Source of the DNA: Janthinobacterium agaricidamnosum | GTDB lineage: Bacteria > Pseudomonadota > Gammaproteobacteria > Burkholderiales > Burkholderiaceae_D | DNA: 64,000 nt | Assembly (NCBI RefSeq): GCF_003667705.1 | Contig: NZ_CP033019.1 | Span: 1,984,001 to 2,048,000, forward strand | Reading direction: 5' to 3' | Shown here: in pieces, positions 7,033-22,547 of the stretch | Layout: each line of letters begins with the position of its first letter | How positions within the stretch are numbered: the first letter of the stretch is position 1 | Translations under genes and position numbers: made by a program | Notes under the pieces: generated by a model | The model's database searches: none | What the model was told of the DNA's origin: nothing | The model's input: the letters and a program-made list of their open reading frames with translations, nothing else

Positions 7033-7869
7033 CTAACCGCGGCCCAGGTTTTTTTCCACTGTCTTGACCAGGGCCACCAGACGCGGACCCAGGTCCGATT
7101 CGAGTTTTTCGCGCGACAGCAAAAAGGCGGGGCCGCCGCAATTGAAGGCCATCACCTGTTCGCCATCGGCGCCCAGCATGGGCACGCCCACGGCATGCAC
7201 GTCGTTCTGCCATTCGCCGGCCGAGATGCAAAAGCCCCGGTCCTGGTAATCCTTGAAGCCTTGCTCGATGCCGGCCTTGATGCGCGGCCAGCGTTCCGTT
7301 TCGTGCACGCGCGCATGGTCCATCAGATAGTCGCGCTCGGCCTGCGGCAGGATGCACAGCAGGGCCTTGCCCATGGCCGTCGTCATCAGGGGAATGCGCG
7401 AGCCGACGTCGAGGCGCAGCGTGACGTTGGCGCTGCTGCGGCAGGTTTCCACGTACACCATGCTGAGGCGGTCGCGCGTGCCCAGCGACACGGACGCCTG
7501 CGCATGTTCGGCCAGTTCCTCCATCAGCGGGCGCGCCATCTTGCGCACGTCCAGGTTCGACAGCATGCGGTAGCCGAGGGCCAGCACGCCGGCGCCCAGC
7601 TGGTACTTGCCCAGGTTGTCCGAGTAATTGAGGTAGCCGAGTTTGGTGAGGGTGTAGGTGAGGCGCGAAATGGTGGGCTTGGGGATGCCCGTGCGCTTGG
7701 CCATGTCCGCATTCGACAGGAACACTTCGCCGGGGCGAAAGCACCGCAGCACTTCGAGGCCGCGCGCCAGCGCGTTGACGAACTGGCGGTCCTTGCCTTC
7801 CTCGTCATCGCTGAAGACGATGATTTCCGGATCTGCTGCGGCCTGAATATTTGTCATATTTGCATTCAT
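7033..7869 (-). CDS. IclR-family transcriptional regulator
   Basis: 278-residue regulator with an N-terminal winged helix-turn-helix (ALARGLEVLRCFRP...NADMAKRTGIPKPTISRLTYTLTKLGYL, about residues 33-80) and a C-terminal effector-binding GAF-like domain. GGGAG precedes the ATG at 7869; a second in-frame ATG is at 7857. It lies 51 bp upstream of the dehydrogenase gene on the same strand and probably controls the acid uptake and activation block. IclR members often sense the pathway substrate; which one is unknown here. Confidence 0.9.
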   Translation of the reverse strand: MNANMTNIQAAADPEIIVFSDDEEGKDRQFVNALARGLEVLRCFRPGEVFLSNADMAKRTGIPKPTISRLTYTLTKLGYLNYSDNLGKYQLGAGVLALGYRMLSNLDVRKMARPLMEELAEHAQASVSLGTRDRLSMVYVETCRSSANVTLRLDVGSRIPLMTTAMGKALLCILPQAERDYLMDHARVHETERWPRIKAGIEQGFKDYQDRGFCISAGEWQNDVHAVGVPMLGADGEQVMAFNCGGPAFLLSREKLESDLGPRLVALVKTVEKNLGRG

Positions 7870-8021
7870 TTGCTGGCTCCCTGGAAATCAGTTTGCCTAG
7901 CCGGCTCCCGCATGTCAACCGTTTTGTGAAACATTCGTTCGCACAGCGAAATGGTGCGGTGCATGAAAAATCGCCGGGAAATTGACTTGCGCGCCCGTTT
8001 TGCCTCTCCCCGCTTGAGCAT

Positions 8022-8045
8022 CGCTATATACGTCTGTATATTGCG
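8022..8045. promoter_or_regulatory. ModE-box-like palindrome, distal copy
   Basis: The 24-bp inverted repeat is CGCTATATA-N6-TATATTGCG with one mismatch between half-sites. It resembles the molybdate-responsive ModE operator as I remember it (CGTTATAT half-sites around a short spacer). It lies 82 bp upstream of the TonB receptor start and 69 bp, centre to centre, from a second copy. No ModE gene is in the window. Confidence 0.6.
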
Positions 8046-8056
8046 CTGTTGGATGA

Positions 8057-8084
8057 CGGCCGCCGCACGAGTGGCCGCTTTTTT
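8057..8084 (+). terminator. Small terminator-like hairpin in the receptor leader
   Basis: CGGCC and GGCCG form a short stem around an 11-nt loop, followed by a run of six T. It sits between the two ModE-like palindromes, upstream of the receptor start. A five-pair stem is weak, so this may be chance or a leader attenuator. Confidence 0.3.
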
Positions 8085-8090
8085 GCATAT

Positions 8091-8114
8091 CGCTATATAA
8101 AACGATATATAACG
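8091..8114. promoter_or_regulatory. ModE-box-like palindrome, proximal copy
   Basis: CGCTATATA-N6-TATATAACG, again 24 bp with six-base spacing and one mismatch. The right half matches the canonical CGTTATATA half-site exactly when read on the other strand. It ends directly at the receptor ribosome site (GGAAGAG), so a bound repressor could block both promoter clearance and initiation. Confidence 0.65.
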
Positions 8115-8126
8115 GAAGAGAACAAG

Positions 8127-10133
8127 ATGACGATGGTGAAACAGGTAATGGCAGGCGCCGTGATGCTGGCGCTGGCGCTGGCGCTGGCGCAGACGGTGCA
8201 GGCGCAGCAGACAGCAGGCAAAGATGAGGCTGCGCCGTTCGTGCTGGGCACGGTGACGGTGATCGGCCCGCGCGAGCAGGCCGGCCAGGTGGAACAGCAA
8301 GTGGGCACGCAAGTGAGCCGTGCCGGGATGCGCCGCTTTAACCGCGACAACGTGGGCGACGCCCTCAATTTGCTGTCCGGCGTGTCGCTGTCGACCAATG
8401 CGCGCAACGAGAAAACCGTCGCCATCCGCGGCTTCGATGCGCGCCAGGTGCCGCTGTACATCGACGGCATTCCCGTCTACGTGCCGTATGACGGCTACGT
8501 CGATTTCAACCGCTTCACGACCAGCGACCTGGCCGCGATCCAGGTGGCCAAGGGCTTCAGTTCCGTGGCCTACGGCGCCAATACCCTGGGCGGCGCCATC
8601 AACCTGGTGTCGCGCAAACCGACGGCTTTGATGGAAGGCGATGCGTCAGTGGGATTCGGTTCGGGCAGCGAGCGCCAGGTGTCGGCCAACGTGGGCACGA
8701 ACCAGGGCCTGTGGTATCTGCAGGCGGGCGTGTCCTACATCGACAGCGACGGCTTTCCCCTGTCGTCCGATTTCCGCCCCACGGCCACGGAAGACGGCGG
8801 CATGCGCAATAACGCCTATCGCAAGGACCATAAGGTGTCGTTCAAGGTGGGTCTGACGCCCGATGGCGCGCACGCGGGCGATGAATATGCGCTCAGCTAC
8901 TACAAGCAGCATGGCGAAAAGGGCCAGCCGCCATCGACGAACCCCGTCGGCGCGCGCTACTGGCAGTGGCCGTACTGGAACAAGGAAAGCGTGTATCTCG
9001 TCTCGCAGACGCGTCTGGGCCAGCAGGAACGCCTGAAACTGCGCCTGTACCACGACAGCTACGACAATGAAATCACCTCCTATACAAACGGCAGCTACGC
9101 GACCCTGAAGACCAGCGGCCAGGGCAGTGTCAGCGGCGGGCGCAGCATCTATAACGACCGCACGAACGGCGGCGCGGTGGAACTCGAATCGTTCCGCCTG
9201 GCCGCGCACAGCCTGCGTTTTGTGGCCAGCTACAAGGCCGACGAGCACCAGGAACTGGGCGCCAGGGGCGTGCGCACCACCTGGTACAAGGATGCCCTGT
9301 GGACTCTGGGCGCGGAAGACAGCATCGCCCTCAATGCGGCGACGGAACTGTCGCTGGGCGTGTCGCGCAATGCACTGCGCCCGGACACCGTCTACAGCGC
9401 CGGCAATGCGTATACCTTGCCCGAGAATCAATCGGCCACCGACCTGCAGGCGGGCCTGTTCCACAAGACCGGTCTTGCATCGCGCGTGTACGCCACCGTG
9501 GCGCGCAAGTCGCGCCTGCCGACCCTGAAGGACCGCTACTCGCAGCGCCTGGGCACATATATTGAAAACCCGGCCTTGCGCGCGGAAGAGGCAATGAATT
9601 ATGAGCTGGGCTACCAGGCAACCGTGCGCGGGCTGGCGCTCGATGCCGCCCTGTTCTACAGCGACGTGAAGGACAAGATCCAGAGCGTGGCGAATGTGGC
9701 GGGCGTGCGTGCGCAGATGCGCAACGCGGGCAGGGAGCACATCAGCGGCGTGGAACTGGGCGTGCGCGGCCGCGCCGGCGCATGGCTCGATTTCGGCGGC
9801 AACTACACGTACACGGACATGAAGAACGTCAGCGACCGTGCCATCCGCCTGACGGACGTGCCGCGCCACAAGCTGACGGCGCACGCCGTGCTGCACGCGG
9901 CGCGCCAGGTCGACGTGGTGGCCATCGCGGAAGCGAACAGCGGCCGCTGGGTCTCGAACACTTTGGCCCTGGGCGGCTTTGCCAGCGTGAACCTGAAGGC
10001 CGTGTACCGCCCCTTGCCGGCCTTGACCCTGGATGCGGGCGTGAACAACCTGGCTGACCGCAACTATGCGCTGGCCGACGGTTTTCCCAGCGCGGGCCGC
10101 ACCTGGCTGGCCAATGCGCAATACCAGTTCTGA
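8127..10133 (+). CDS. TonB-dependent outer-membrane receptor, possibly for molybdate or another metal chelate
   Basis: 668-residue outer-membrane transporter. The start MTMVKQVMAG at 8127 has GGAAGAG six bases upstream; earlier codons in frame lie within the operator region. A signal peptide ends near QTVQAQ, a TonB-box-like LGTVTVIG follows, then the plug domain (GVSLSTNARNEKTVAIRGFDARQ, VAYGANTLGGAINLVSRKP) and a beta-barrel ending in NAQYQF with a terminal aromatic residue. Two ModE-like palindromes precede it and a SUOX-fold periplasmic protein follows after 27 bp. The family is certain; molybdenum-related cargo is inference from the operators. Confidence 0.9.
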   Translation: MTMVKQVMAGAVMLALALALAQTVQAQQTAGKDEAAPFVLGTVTVIGPREQAGQVEQQVGTQVSRAGMRRFNRDNVGDALNLLSGVSLSTNARNEKTVAIRGFDARQVPLYIDGIPVYVPYDGYVDFNRFTTSDLAAIQVAKGFSSVAYGANTLGGAINLVSRKPTALMEGDASVGFGSGSERQVSANVGTNQGLWYLQAGVSYIDSDGFPLSSDFRPTATEDGGMRNNAYRKDHKVSFKVGLTPDGAHAGDEYALSYYKQHGEKGQPPSTNPVGARYWQWPYWNKESVYLVSQTRLGQQERLKLRLYHDSYDNEITSYTNGSYATLKTSGQGSVSGGRSIYNDRTNGGAVELESFRLAAHSLRFVASYKADEHQELGARGVRTTWYKDALWTLGAEDSIALNAATELSLGVSRNALRPDTVYSAGNAYTLPENQSATDLQAGLFHKTGLASRVYATVARKSRLPTLKDRYSQRLGTYIENPALRAEEAMNYELGYQATVRGLALDAALFYSDVKDKIQSVANVAGVRAQMRNAGREHISGVELGVRGRAGAWLDFGGNYTYTDMKNVSDRAIRLTDVPRHKLTAHAVLHAARQVDVVAIAEANSGRWVSNTLALGGFASVNLKAVYRPLPALTLDAGVNNLADRNYALADGFPSAGRTWLANAQYQF

Positions 10134-10160
10134 GTTTTTACTGTCATGAAAGGACACAGC

Positions 10161-10697
10161 ATGTTGAAGAAAATATTCCTTGGTTTGGCTTCGGCCGCAC
10201 TGCTGGCGGCGGCCCCCGCATGGGCCGACCCGGCGCCGGCGCGCGAGAACATGAGCCGCGCGCTCGCCGTCACGGGCAAGGTGGCAACGCCGTTGACCCT
10301 GACGGTAGCCGACCTGCGCCGGCTGCCGCAAGCCAATGGCGGAGACATCGCCGTCACGCGCCACAACGGCGACAAGGCCGAAACCATCACCAGTTACAAG
10401 GGCGTGCGCCTGCGCGACATCCTCGACAAGGCGGCGCTCGATGCGCCCGGCCACAACGACGTCAAGAAGCTCGCGATCATCGCCACTGCCACCGATGGCT
10501 ATGCGGTGGTGTTTTCCTGGGGCGAGCTGTATAACTCGCCGGCCGGCGAGGGCGTGATCGTCTACTACGAAAAGAACGGCAAGGCGCTTGACGACAGCGA
10601 TGGCGAGATCGCCCTCATCTCGGCGAAGGATATCCGCACGGGCCCGCGCCATGTGAAGTGGCTGAACGCCATCGAGGTGCGCAAATTGGTGGAATAG
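10161..10697 (+). CDS. Small periplasmic SUOX/molybdopterin-oxidoreductase-fold protein without cysteine
   Basis: 178-residue secreted protein. The ATG at 10161 is preferred over that at 10146 because AAAGGA sits six bases upstream. The signal peptide MLKKIFLGLASAALLAAAPAWA precedes a domain resembling Oxidored_molyb (LTLTVADLRRLPQ, ITSYKGVRLRDILDKA, ATDGYAVVFSWGELYN, GPRHVKWLNAIEV). The whole protein contains no cysteine, so the molybdenum-ligating Cys of sulfite-oxidase-type enzymes is absent and a catalytic role of that kind is unlikely. Co-transcribed with the TonB receptor, it could bind the imported compound or cofactor; this is inference. Confidence 0.72.
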   Translation: MLKKIFLGLASAALLAAAPAWADPAPARENMSRALAVTGKVATPLTLTVADLRRLPQANGGDIAVTRHNGDKAETITSYKGVRLRDILDKAALDAPGHNDVKKLAIIATATDGYAVVFSWGELYNSPAGEGVIVYYEKNGKALDDSDGEIALISAKDIRTGPRHVKWLNAIEVRKLVE

Positions 10698-10702
10698 AGG
10701 CA

Positions 10703-10742
10703 TGCTGGGGTCTGACCCGCCGGGTCAGACCCCAGCATTTTT
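10703..10742. terminator. Strong hairpin terminator containing a GGGGTCTGACCC repeat
   Basis: A perfect 16-bp inverted repeat (10703-10718 with 10722-10737) around a 3-nt loop is followed by five T. It closes the receptor unit and also faces the end of the minus-strand esterase gene. The core GGGGTCTGACCC recurs at 17741-17781, so it is also a repeated element. Confidence 0.85.
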
Positions 10743-10754
10743 CTAGTGGACTAT

Positions 10755-11684
10755 TTACGCAAACATGGCACTTTTCATTGCTTGGCCCGCCACGTCGAAC
10801 AATCCCCGCGCCTTTGGTGCCAAGCCCGGCATGTGTATCGATGCATGGATCATGCCGTCGAGCTGCACGCATTGCGCCGCCACGCCGTCGTCGCGCAAAT
10901 ACCGCGCATAGGCTTCGCCCTCGTCATGCAGCGGGTCGTACTCGCATACCAGCACCGTCGCCGGCGGCAAGTCCTTGAGCGACGTTGCCCGCAGGGGCGC
11001 CGCGTAGGCGTTTGCGCCGTCGGCCGGCTCGTTCAGGTAGGCGGACCAGCAAAAGCGCATCGCTTCCTGCGTCAGCGAGTGGCCCTCCGCATAGCGCTGG
11101 TAGGACGGCGTGTCGAAGGCAAAATCGAGCGCCGGGTACAGCAGCAGCTGATGCGCCAGCGCGGGACCGGCCTGGTCGCGCGCCATCAGGGCGGCGGCCG
11201 CCGCCAGGTTGCCGCCCGCGCTGTCGCCGCCCACGGCCAGCCGTTTCGCATCGATGCCCAGCATCTCCGCCTGGTCGGCGACCCAGCACAGGGCCCGGTA
11301 AAAATCGTTCAGCGGCACGGGAAACTTGTGCTCGGGCGCCAGCCGGTAGTCGACGGAAACGATCACGCAGCCGGTGGCGTTGGCCAGCGCGCGGCAGGGA
11401 TTGTCGTACAGGTCCAGCGAGCACAGACACCATCCTCCGCCATGCGCAAAGACGATGGCCGGCAGGGGCTTGCTTGTGTCCGCGCCGGCGGGCACGTAGG
11501 CGCGCACGGTCAGCGCATGCTCGCCCGGCAGCACGTAATCGGTGATGGATGCGACGTCTTCCAGGGGGCCATGCAGCTGGCGCAACCCCGTTTCCGTGGC
11601 CGCGCGCAGGTCCGCCAGCGAGGCGGGCGGCGGCGCATCTTTTATCTCTTCCAGCCAGGCGGCAATCAGCGGATCGAGGCTCAT
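10755..11684 (-). CDS. Alpha/beta hydrolase, HSL-type esterase (Aes-like)
   Basis: 309-residue cytoplasmic esterase. The hormone-sensitive-lipase oxyanion motif HGGGW and the nucleophile motif GDSAGG are both present; the acid and base are likely in CEYDPLHDEG and the C-terminal MIHASI. The start at 11684 overlaps the upstream hydrolase stop in ATGA, indicating coupling. It belongs to a three-gene minus-strand unit with another hydrolase and a sugar isomerase-like gene. Substrate not determinable. Confidence 0.88.
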   Translation of the reverse strand: MSLDPLIAAWLEEIKDAPPPASLADLRAATETGLRQLHGPLEDVASITDYVLPGEHALTVRAYVPAGADTSKPLPAIVFAHGGGWCLCSLDLYDNPCRALANATGCVIVSVDYRLAPEHKFPVPLNDFYRALCWVADQAEMLGIDAKRLAVGGDSAGGNLAAAAALMARDQAGPALAHQLLLYPALDFAFDTPSYQRYAEGHSLTQEAMRFCWSAYLNEPADGANAYAAPLRATSLKDLPPATVLVCEYDPLHDEGEAYARYLRDDGVAAQCVQLDGMIHASIHMPGLAPKARGLFDVAGQAMKSAMFA

Positions 11685-19661: not shown

Positions 19662-22547
19662 TCAGGCCGCGGCGTTCGCTTCCTTCGTTTCGGCCCGCAG
19701 CAGCAGTTCCACCTCGTGCGCAGGCAGCGGGTGACTGAAGTAATAGCCTTGCGCCTCGTCGCAGCCGTGCTGACGCAGGTAGTCCAGCTGCTCGGCCGTT
19801 TCCACGCCTTCGGCCACCACGCGCAGTTTCAGATTGTGCGCCAGGGCGATGATGGAGACGACGATGGCTGCGTCGTCCGCGTCGCGCGCCACGTCGCCGA
19901 CGAAACTGCGGTCGATCTTCAGCACGTCGATGGGGAAGGTGCGCAGGTAGGCGAAGCTGGAATAGCCGGTGCCGAAGTCGTCGATCGACAGCTGCACTCC
20001 CAGCGCCTTCATGTCGTGCAGCTGGCTGACGGCCAGCGCCACGTCGTGCATGAACAGGCTTTCCGTCAGTTCCAGTTCCAGGCAGGCGGGCGGCAGGCCC
20101 GTTTCCAGCAGCACTTCGGCGATCGAGGCGACCAGGTTCGGCTCGTTGAACTGGCGCGCCGACAGGTTCACGGCCAGGCGCAGCGGGTCCAGCCCCGCCG
20201 CATGCCAGCGTTTCACCTGCGCGCACGCCTCGCGCATGACCCAGGCGCCGATCGGCACGATCAGGCCCGTATCTTCCGCCAGCGCGATGAAGCGCTGCGG
20301 CGCCACCATGCCCAGGTCCGGATGCTGCCAGCGCAGCAGCGCTTCCACGCCGACGATGCGCCCGCTGGCCAGGTCCAGCTGCGGCTGGTAATGCAGCACG
20401 AACTGTTCGCGCTCCAGGGCGTTGCGCAGCGCCGTCTCGATGCGCAGGCGCTCCAGGGTGGCCTGGTTCATGGCCGTCGTGTAGAACTTGATGTTGTTGC
20501 GGCCCTGTTTCTTGGCGCAGTACATGGCGATGTCGGCCTGCTCGATCAGGTTCTGCGTCTCGCCATTCAGGGTCACGTCGCCGGGAGCGTCGTGGCGCGA
20601 CATGTCGTAGACGGCTACGCCGATGCTGCAGGTGACGAAGAATTCCTTGCCATCCAGCAATACCGGCTGGGCCACGGCATCCATCACGCGCTGCACGATG
20701 GCGGCGCTGAGCGCTTCGTCGGCCTGTTCGCACAGGATGGCGACGAATTCGTCGCCCGACAGGCGCGCCACCGTATCGGTTTCGCGCAGGCTGGCCTGCA
20801 GGCGCGTGGCGATGGTTTTCAGCAGCAGGTCGCCGGCCTTGTGGCCGAGGCTGTCGTTGACGAACTTGAAGCGGTCGAGGTCGATCAACAGCACCCACAG
20901 CGCGCGGTTCTTGCGGCGCGACAGGGCCATCGCTTGCGCCAGGCGGTCGCGCAGCAGGGCGCGGTTGGGCAAGCCCGTCAGCACGTCGTGGTGGGCGATG
21001 TGCTGGATTTGCTGCTCGGCCAGCTTGCGTTCCGTAATTTCGGAACCCGTGCCCCGGTAGCCGCGAAATTCGCCGAACTCGTTGAACAGCGGTTCGCCAT
21101 TGACGCTGAACCAGCGCAGCTGGCCATTGCGGTCGTGCATCGCATATTCGAGGTTGGAAAAGGGCAGGTGGGCTTCCAGATTGGCGATATGCTGCTTGCC
21201 CCAGCGCGAATTGCGCATCTCCGGGTTGTTGTCCCAGCGCGTCATGCCGATGAAGCGTTCCAGCGGCATGTTCGACTTGTCCGTGAAGCCGCTGGTGATG
21301 TGGGTGAAGCAGAAGTTGGCGTCCTGCTCCCAGTACCAGTCCGAGGACAAGGCCAGCAGGCGGCGGAAGCGCTTTTCGCTTTCCTGCAGGGCGCGCTCCG
21401 TGCGCTGGCGCGCGCGCACGTCGGCGCTGAGCAGCTCGTTGCTGCGCTTGAGGTCGGCAGTGCGCTGCTCCACCAGCAGCTGCACGCGGCGCGAGCGCTG
21501 CGTCAGCGATTGCACGAAGGCGGCCGTCAGCAAGCTGAACAGCAAGCCCATGATCACGGTGAACAGCGAGCCCAAGTGGTCGGCCAGGAAGGGCCGCGGA
21601 TGGGCCACCACGCGCACGTGCCAGGGCCGGCCGGCGGAAAAAAAGGCACGGTCATAATGGCTGTGGTAGGCAAAGTGCAGCCAGCGCGGCAGCACCTCCC
21701 AGGTGACGCCCGCTTCGTCGGCAGGCGCCTGGCCGTGCCGGAAGATCAACTGGCGCGGGTCGGCGCCGGCGTCGGCATAGACGCTCAGTTCGAGCTGCGG
21801 GTCGCCCAGCAGGTCGGCGCCGGCGAGGATTTTCTGCACCAGTTCGCCAGCGCGCACGATGGCCGCCGTATCGCCGATCAGCGCCGCGCGCCGCTGCTGC
21901 ACCGTTTGCAGGGGCACGCCGTGGCGGTACACGGGCCGTACGATGACGAAGCCCTGCTGCGGTCCCTGCGCCAGGGTCAGCAGGCCTGTGGCGGTGGTCT
22001 GGCCGCTGATGATCGATTGTTCCAGCGCGCGCGCCAGCATGCCGCTCGGGCTGACGTTCAGGCCGAAGGCGGGGCGGTTGCCCTGCAAGGGTTCGAGATA
22101 GTCGACCACCATGTAGCTGGCCCGCGTCGTCGCGGGCACGATGACGCCGTCGCGCATTTCCATCATGGCGTAGTCGGGCACGATGCGCCGCAGCTCGGCT
22201 TCGAATGCCGCGCGCTGCGCATGCGGCACGATGCGGTGGAAATTGAAGGCCTGGATGAACGGGTGGCGCTGCAGCAGCGGCGTGGTGAAGTCGTGGAACT
22301 GTTCGCGCGTGACGGGCACGACGGCGGCAAACAGCTGGTTCGTCGTGGTCAGCACCTCGACCGCGTCGTCGAGTCCCTGCTCGATGGCGGCCACCCTGGC
22401 GCCGGCGCGTTGCTGCAGGCTCAGGCTCATCTTGTCGTATTCGAGCTGGCTGATGGCGGCGAACAGCACGGCCGTCACGCTGACGCCGCAGGCGAAGGTC
22501 AGCGCGGCCGCGGCGGAAATCGACAATGGCAGGCGGCCACGCAGCAT
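19662..22547 (-). CDS. CHASE-PAS-GGDEF-EAL c-di-GMP sensor protein
   Basis: 961 residues in the inner membrane. A first membrane helix (residues 10-32) and a second (325-347) flank a periplasmic CHASE-like sensor. PAS spans about 385-505, GGDEF about 515-690 and EAL about 700-950. The cyclase motif is SGDEF (597-601), a variant often seen in dual proteins. The EAL domain has EALLRW (735-740), NLSARQF, ELTES, DDFGTGYSSF and VAEGVET, so phosphodiesterase activity is expected. The net direction of c-di-GMP change cannot be read from sequence. Confidence 0.92.
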   Translation of the reverse strand: MLRGRLPLSISAAAALTFACGVSVTAVLFAAISQLEYDKMSLSLQQRAGARVAAIEQGLDDAVEVLTTTNQLFAAVVPVTREQFHDFTTPLLQRHPFIQAFNFHRIVPHAQRAAFEAELRRIVPDYAMMEMRDGVIVPATTRASYMVVDYLEPLQGNRPAFGLNVSPSGMLARALEQSIISGQTTATGLLTLAQGPQQGFVIVRPVYRHGVPLQTVQQRRAALIGDTAAIVRAGELVQKILAGADLLGDPQLELSVYADAGADPRQLIFRHGQAPADEAGVTWEVLPRWLHFAYHSHYDRAFFSAGRPWHVRVVAHPRPFLADHLGSLFTVIMGLLFSLLTAAFVQSLTQRSRRVQLLVEQRTADLKRSNELLSADVRARQRTERALQESEKRFRRLLALSSDWYWEQDANFCFTHITSGFTDKSNMPLERFIGMTRWDNNPEMRNSRWGKQHIANLEAHLPFSNLEYAMHDRNGQLRWFSVNGEPLFNEFGEFRGYRGTGSEITERKLAEQQIQHIAHHDVLTGLPNRALLRDRLAQAMALSRRKNRALWVLLIDLDRFKFVNDSLGHKAGDLLLKTIATRLQASLRETDTVARLSGDEFVAILCEQADEALSAAIVQRVMDAVAQPVLLDGKEFFVTCSIGVAVYDMSRHDAPGDVTLNGETQNLIEQADIAMYCAKKQGRNNIKFYTTAMNQATLERLRIETALRNALEREQFVLHYQPQLDLASGRIVGVEALLRWQHPDLGMVAPQRFIALAEDTGLIVPIGAWVMREACAQVKRWHAAGLDPLRLAVNLSARQFNEPNLVASIAEVLLETGLPPACLELELTESLFMHDVALAVSQLHDMKALGVQLSIDDFGTGYSSFAYLRTFPIDVLKIDRSFVGDVARDADDAAIVVSIIALAHNLKLRVVAEGVETAEQLDYLRQHGCDEAQGYYFSHPLPAHEVELLLRAETKEANAAA

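Follow-up and report, generated by a model that had tools for sequence, protein, structure and literature searches.

Results and discussion

How does a bacterium bring molybdenum across its outer membrane? Molybdate is usually described as diffusing through porins and being taken up afterwards by ModABC, and a locus of the soil bacterium Janthinobacterium agaricidamnosum raises the question of whether a more active route exists. The window, by which we mean the whole stretch of 64,000 nucleotides analysed here (contig NZ_CP033019.1, positions 1,984,001 to 2,048,000), is part of a single-contig genome of 6.36 Mb. In it, two palindromes precede a gene for a TonB-dependent receptor, which is followed by a gene for a small protein of the SUOX fold. 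We read the two genes as a molybdenum-acquisition operon repressed by molybdate-loaded ModE, with the SUOX protein as the periplasmic binding partner of the receptor, and assign this reading as a whole a probability of roughly 0.6. The features of the locus are as follows.

7033-7869, minus strand: IclR-type regulator, divergent from the palindrome-receptor unit
8014-8042, plus strand: sigma-70-like promoter, TTGAGC-17-TATATT, with its -10 hexamer within operator 1
8022-8045, no strand: ModE-type operator 1, 18 of 20 consensus letters, consensus start ATCG at 8020
8057-8084, plus strand: terminator-like hairpin (8057-8077) and T-run (8079-8084), between operators 1 and 2
8091-8114, no strand: ModE-type operator 2, 18 of 20 consensus letters, 12 bp 5' of the receptor start
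8127-10133, plus strand: TonB-dependent receptor, 668 aa, Plug at residues 61-157 and barrel at 269-642
10161-10697, plus strand: small SUOX-fold protein, 178 aa, PF00174, cysteine-free, signal-peptide-like N-terminus
10702-10738, plus strand: intrinsic-terminator-like hairpin of 17 pairs with a T-run, at the 3' end of the two-gene unit

An earlier note, made from the sequence of the window, had described the palindromes, the receptor and the SUOX protein, and its description holds. Both 24-bp palindromes are present at 8022-8045 and 8091-8114, the Plug (PF07715, 69.1 bits) and barrel (PF00593, 100 bits) domains of the receptor at 8127-10133 both score over the cut-off, and the gap of 27 bp and the cysteine-free product of 178 residues were both given correctly. 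The SUOX fold proposed for 10161-10697 is agreed upon by Pfam (PF00174, E 8e-11) and by the predicted structure. Beyond the hairpin at 10702-10738 the next gene encodes an alpha/beta hydrolase on the opposite strand. Three terminator-like elements were counted in the region against 2.4 expected in shuffles, and the stem at 10702-10738 is the longest by far.

The palindromes as ModE operators

Operator 1 reads CGCTATATA-CGTCTG-TATATTGCG and operator 2 reads CGCTATATA-AAACGA-TATATAACG. When the palindrome pattern was searched with up to three mismatches, the window held these two places alone; the shuffled window gave a mean of 0.04 matches, two at the most and never four. Extended by two bases on each side, both operators agree with 18 of the 20 letters of the E. 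coli-type ModE consensus, ATCGNTATATA-N6-TATATANCGAT, as it stands in the excerpted text of PMC545781. A scan of the genome with up to two mismatches returned three places, all of them perfect (0 mismatches) on one strand or both, compared with 0.0009 such perfect matches expected from a base-composition estimate. The third perfect match lies 32 bp 5' of modA in a modA-modB-modC-modE cluster and agrees with 16 of the 20 letters of the same excerpted consensus (PMC545781). A full-length ModE is encoded in the genome (TIGR00637 over the cut-off at G000:C1:5915316-5915573), with a helix-turn-helix domain (HTH_1) and two TOBE stretches. Among the 72 TonB-barrel matches (PF00593) of the genome, the window's receptor alone has the operator site before it.

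Simple counts of looser matches have to be read with care. The pattern read backwards, serving as a control, gave three forward and three reverse matches in the genome at up to two mismatches, as many as the true pattern, and in 40 same-genus genomes the control again equalled the operator pattern in count. Bare counts at this threshold are therefore uninformative, and we relied instead on the 0-mismatch sites in the window's own genome and, in relatives, on sites with up to two mismatches placed at receptor starts. Judged from their letters and positions, it is close to certain that the two palindromes are ModE operators.

The layout fits repression, since the likely -10 box is covered by operator 1 and only 12 bp separate operator 2 from the start codon. 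ModE is also an activator of some E. coli molybdoenzyme genes. Together with the PF00174 annotation, this would allow a reading in which abundant molybdenum makes ModE switch the operon on and the SUOX protein acts as a small molybdoenzyme on an imported substrate. We consider this very improbable, because the operators are arranged as those of a repressor, the protein carries no cysteine and PF00174 is its sole Pfam match.

Conservation in relatives

A scan of genome contigs for the SUOX protein gave 22 loci. As a class-wide search (E <= 1e-15) yielded few loci, with matches in 3 of 370 genomes, a family-wide search (E <= 1e-20) was used, which found the protein in 63 of 371 genomes. In total 60 loci were scored: the 22 from the contig scan, every one of the 32 matches lying outside the genus, 4 from within it and 2 from further genomes of the class. 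A locus was called a receptor locus if a receptor of at least 45% identity was encoded in the stretch, and a site was called for up to two mismatches between -300 bp and +60 bp of the estimated start.

At least one ModE site was found at 37 of the 38 receptor loci and two sites at 28 of them; outside the genus the corresponding counts are 21 and 12 of 22. The chance of a site per such stretch is about 0.0003 according to the backward-read control, and a site was hit in 51 of 1200 windows drawn at random from the same loci with the true sites left in. The loci are not all laid out alike: the site of L111 overlaps the estimated receptor start, and in L122 the receptor and the SUOX gene are some 5 kb apart and on opposite strands.

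The pairing of the two proteins is also regular. A receptor of at least 59% identity occurs in 42 of the 371 family genomes and the SUOX protein in all 42 of these; in 21 of the 371 the SUOX protein occurs and no receptor reaches E <= 1e-140. The constancy of the pairing bears on a reading in which the ligand of the receptor is a catechol or other iron siderophore, ModE control would offset or exploit the binding of molybdate by that siderophore, and the SUOX protein is incidental. Azotobacter catechol siderophores do bind molybdate, and the best of the named receptor models for the window's receptor are those for haem and siderophores, all scoring far below the cut-off; BtuB, haem and colicin receptors were also among its best comparisons. 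The constant pairing with the SUOX protein and the location of the pair inside mod clusters in relatives make the siderophore reading improbable.

Three loci show the mod setting. L089 runs modABC, site, receptor, SUOX gene, NifQ-type gene and modE; L050 runs modA, site, receptor, SUOX gene, a cytochrome c-SUOX fusion, NifQ and modE; and L097 has modABC, SUOX gene, NifQ and modE with no receptor. The NifQ-family gene (PF04891) lies between the SUOX gene and modE each time (L089:5509-6144, L097:4381-4968, L050:5191-5808).

Where the related receptor is missing, the site may stand before the SUOX gene itself, as in 10 of 22 SUOX loci. Among five same-genus genomes with the SUOX gene only, three have the operator directly 5' of it (L183, L184, L185), and in L183 and L185 that gene occupies the same chromosomal place as in the window. 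A related observation concerns the receptor frame, which is split in G008 (L182) and interrupted by an in-frame stop in G007 (G007:C77:61206-63182), with the SUOX gene and the operators retained in both. These broken frames suggest that decay of the receptor may come ahead of the loss of the SUOX gene. Separately, seven loci of two related genera (L104-L110) hold the SUOX gene with one or two ModE sites and no close receptor; a DUF2325 gene (PF10087) adjoins the SUOX gene in the three that were scanned (L104, L106, L107).

ModE sites also precede other kinds of TonB receptor. In two same-genus relatives a second kind is followed directly by a ModA-like binding protein (L126:1971-5024, L128:5001-8033); these receptors, of 711 and 717 aa, are 61% identical to each other and match the window's receptor weakly over a short stretch. 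A third kind, 43-47% identical to the window's receptor, comes with an SBP_bac_6 protein (L180:912-4350, L181:1248-5955), and the operon of L181 additionally carries a di-haem oxidoreductase. The sister group L173-L179 lacks a site 5' of the receptor; within it, SBP_bac_6 was confirmed for L173 and L176 and the di-haem oxidoreductase for L173, the rest of the group being judged by eye. Receptors with a ModE site thus recur with different periplasmic binding proteins, and therefore the SUOX protein holds the slot of the binding protein here.

The SUOX-fold protein

PF00174 covers residues 32-175 of the 178. The signal-peptide-like N-terminus suggests a periplasmic location. Sequence comparison with solved structures gave weak matches, with a plant sulfite oxidase at a profile E of 3e-5 and single sequences no better, and PruR appeared among the closest solved folds to the predicted structure, a likeness reached by fold alone and not by sequence. 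Tyr114 is kept in 117 and Trp167 in 116 of 119 rows of the homologue alignment. Their spacing is 53, against 56 for Tyr104 and Trp160, which contact the pterin in PruR (A. tumefaciens numbers), a comparison of distances in which no PruR sequence was aligned.

The earlier note had placed weight on the absence of cysteine, taking the protein for a molybdenum-cofactor fold repurposed as a binding protein. The repurposing is plausible, with two corrections. The window's protein has Arg67-His68 at the register of the cysteine, where homologues have Cys in 58 of 119 rows and Arg in 35, so that the absence of cysteine is not a defining trait; as far as the aligned rows tell, it is a trait of the lineage. 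Nor is a SUOX-fold binder without precedent, as PruR is a known SUOX-fold pterin-binding protein. The cysteine of the homologues was considered as the SUOX metal ligand; when aligned with the sulfite-oxidase-type protein encoded in the same genome (L129), it falls one residue away from the ligand cysteine, so this identity is not claimed. Two further PF00174 proteins of the genome, L130 and L131, were left out of the comparison.

Several observations weigh against a ModE-controlled binding partner. One receptor locus (L112) has no site. Twelve of the 22 receptor-less SUOX loci have no upstream site, of which two are cut by a contig end and several are distant (36-39%); the twelve include two of the five same-genus SUOX-only genomes (L120, L121). 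All nine genomes with a receptor of the 43-47% identity clade lack the SUOX protein. Lastly, the cysteine that roughly half of the homologue rows carry and the fusions of SUOX with cytochrome c would fit a redox role equally well.

Such a role would make the SUOX protein a redox processor and not a carrier: by reducing or oxidising an imported molybdenum complex, or its pterin, it would free the metal, c-type haem partners supplying the electrons. The form in Janthinobacterium would then be a simplified one. The fusions (PF00174 with PF00034) are P0081 from a Sterolibacterium metagenome-assembled genome, P0096 from a Sulfuricella one, P0111 and P0118, and one fusion lies inside the mod cluster of L050 (4330-5166); the cysteine falls within one residue of the SUOX metal-ligand register, and the sister receptor operons of L173 and L181 carry a di-haem oxidoreductase. 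However, a tree of 109 rows shows at least 17 switches of residue class where the cysteine would sit, with Arg, Gly, Leu or Ala taking its place. In the window the receptor-SUOX pair has no haem gene beside it, and it would be a paradox for a shortage of molybdenum to induce a molybdoenzyme. We regard the redox processor as possible but doubtful.

The likeness to PruR suggests yet another role, that of a pterin sensor subunit passing on the status of the cofactor to a partner in signalling. According to the excerpted account, a PruR gene shares a two-gene operon with dcpA or a DTB gene, but here the SUOX gene is followed by the terminator-like hairpin and the opposite-strand hydrolase. No dcpA or DTB gene stands beside the window's SUOX gene, whose upstream neighbour is the receptor (dcpA was not searched over all loci). 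Neither of the two GGDEF-EAL proteins is encoded next to the SUOX gene, and the sensor domains they carry scored as CHASE and PAS. A sensor role is accordingly quite improbable. As PruR works with a c-di-GMP enzyme, we mention that the CHASE-GGDEF-EAL protein (19662-22547, minus strand) lies about 9 kb from the SUOX gene, with no sign of a link. Of the several readings, that of the SUOX protein as the binding partner of the receptor is the best.

The leader between the operators

The sigma-70-like promoter search gave one match in 2.9 kb against 0.7 expected in shuffles. The putative promoter at 8014-8042 is thus weak alone, and it is argued from its position, with the -10 box in operator 1, and not from the match count. 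Its TTGAG is kept in 16 of 16 rows of the same-genus leader alignment.

A hairpin with T-run like that at 8057-8084 was found in 20 of 39 related receptor leaders, compared with 83 of 1950 shuffled leaders; of 39 other TonB receptors in the genome, 2 are preceded by one. The 20 cases are not independent, because 13 of them are close same-genus leaders (the window's not counted). In 15 such leaders all seven pairs are variable on one side only and 98% of cells pair; covariation of the hairpin is unsupported in these 15, as shuffles pair equally well. A riboswitch or other Rfam element was also considered for 7700-10800, and the one match, within the receptor gene, is at chance level (E 0.95). 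Premature termination aided by bound ModE, as an extra layer of control, is speculation.

Proposed role

Taken together, a role in molybdenum acquisition is likely, and the purpose of the unit is probably the catching of molybdenum under scarcity. Control by ModE, as the earlier note had put forward, is strongly supported by the same operator before modABC-modE, by its retention before related receptors and by the mod-cluster context in relatives. The molybdenum-responsive outer-membrane uptake system proposed there is a candidate well supported by genomic context.

Under the preferred reading, molybdate-loaded ModE would repress the receptor-SUOX operon by occluding the promoter at operator 1 and acting as a roadblock at operator 2. 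Scarcity of molybdate would free both operators of ModE, and the two proteins would be made. The receptor would then import a molybdenum-bearing ligand with TonB energy, the SUOX protein would bind this ligand in the periplasm, either whole or by the portion that is pterin or chelate, and the molybdenum would be handed over to ModABC. Candidates for the ligand are a molybdate chelate or a pterin or molybdopterin species.

A more specific version may be offered tentatively, and we hold it to be unlikely as a whole. In it the receptor takes up pterin-bound molybdenum, either molybdopterin or molybdenum cofactor released from other cells, or a molybdate-chelating pterin that is secreted, the SUOX protein is its dedicated periplasmic carrier, and the leader hairpin between two ModE roadblocks adds a layer of premature termination. 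If this were true, the uptake would be a route of cofactor salvage or of a "pterin molybdophore", the molybdenum counterpart of haem and B12 uptake.

For molybdenum in general, a TonB receptor under ModE control and with a dedicated binding protein would imply active retrieval of an external molybdenum complex by some bacteria, as is done for iron, B12 and lanthanides. The SUOX-fold partner is a concrete, purifiable handle toward the identity of the ligand.

Comparison with known systems

PruR, the periplasmic pterin-binding protein of about 170 aa with a SUOX fold, shares with the window's protein its size, its fold, the absence of the metal-ligand cysteine, a secretion-type N-terminus and a conserved D/N-x-Y motif with a Trp, as far as the excerpted description goes (PMC13259868). 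By the same excerpts they differ in that the window's protein has no adjoining DcpA or DTB gene and is paired with a receptor under ModE, and in that a Trp replaces the metal-ligand Cys in PruR, whereas the window's protein has Arg/His there and many relatives Cys or Gln. A class-wide search with PF00174 had matches in 39 of 77 genomes, and no PruR candidate was recognised among the matches listed, none of which was examined individually. If the proposed role holds, ligand binding by the SUOX fold extends from pterin signalling, as in PruR, to nutrient uptake.

The SUOX-family molybdoenzymes (sulfite dehydrogenase, SoxC, MsrP) differ from the window's protein, which has 178 aa and no cysteine ligand. 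Their C-terminal dimerisation or second domain was not found in it by Pfam.

TonB-linked molybdate uptake is already in print as an annotation: one published genome annotation proposes a TonB receptor beside ABC-transporter and mod genes for molybdate, with neither operator analysis nor a SUOX-fold partner in the excerpt available. Our literature search, by titles and the starts of abstracts, found no publication on a ModE-controlled TonB receptor with a SUOX-fold partner. In Rhodobacter capsulatus, the excerpted source describes MorABC as extra transport genes that are repressed by ModE-like regulators when molybdenum is present; these are ABC-transporter components, unlike the outer-membrane receptor here (PMC6925177). 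With the E. coli-type ModE regulon that controls modABC, the locus has in common the operator of 18 out of 20 letters, a full-length ModE in the genome and the same site before modA. It departs from that regulon in its target, a TonB receptor with a SUOX-fold protein, and in its two operators with an intervening hairpin.

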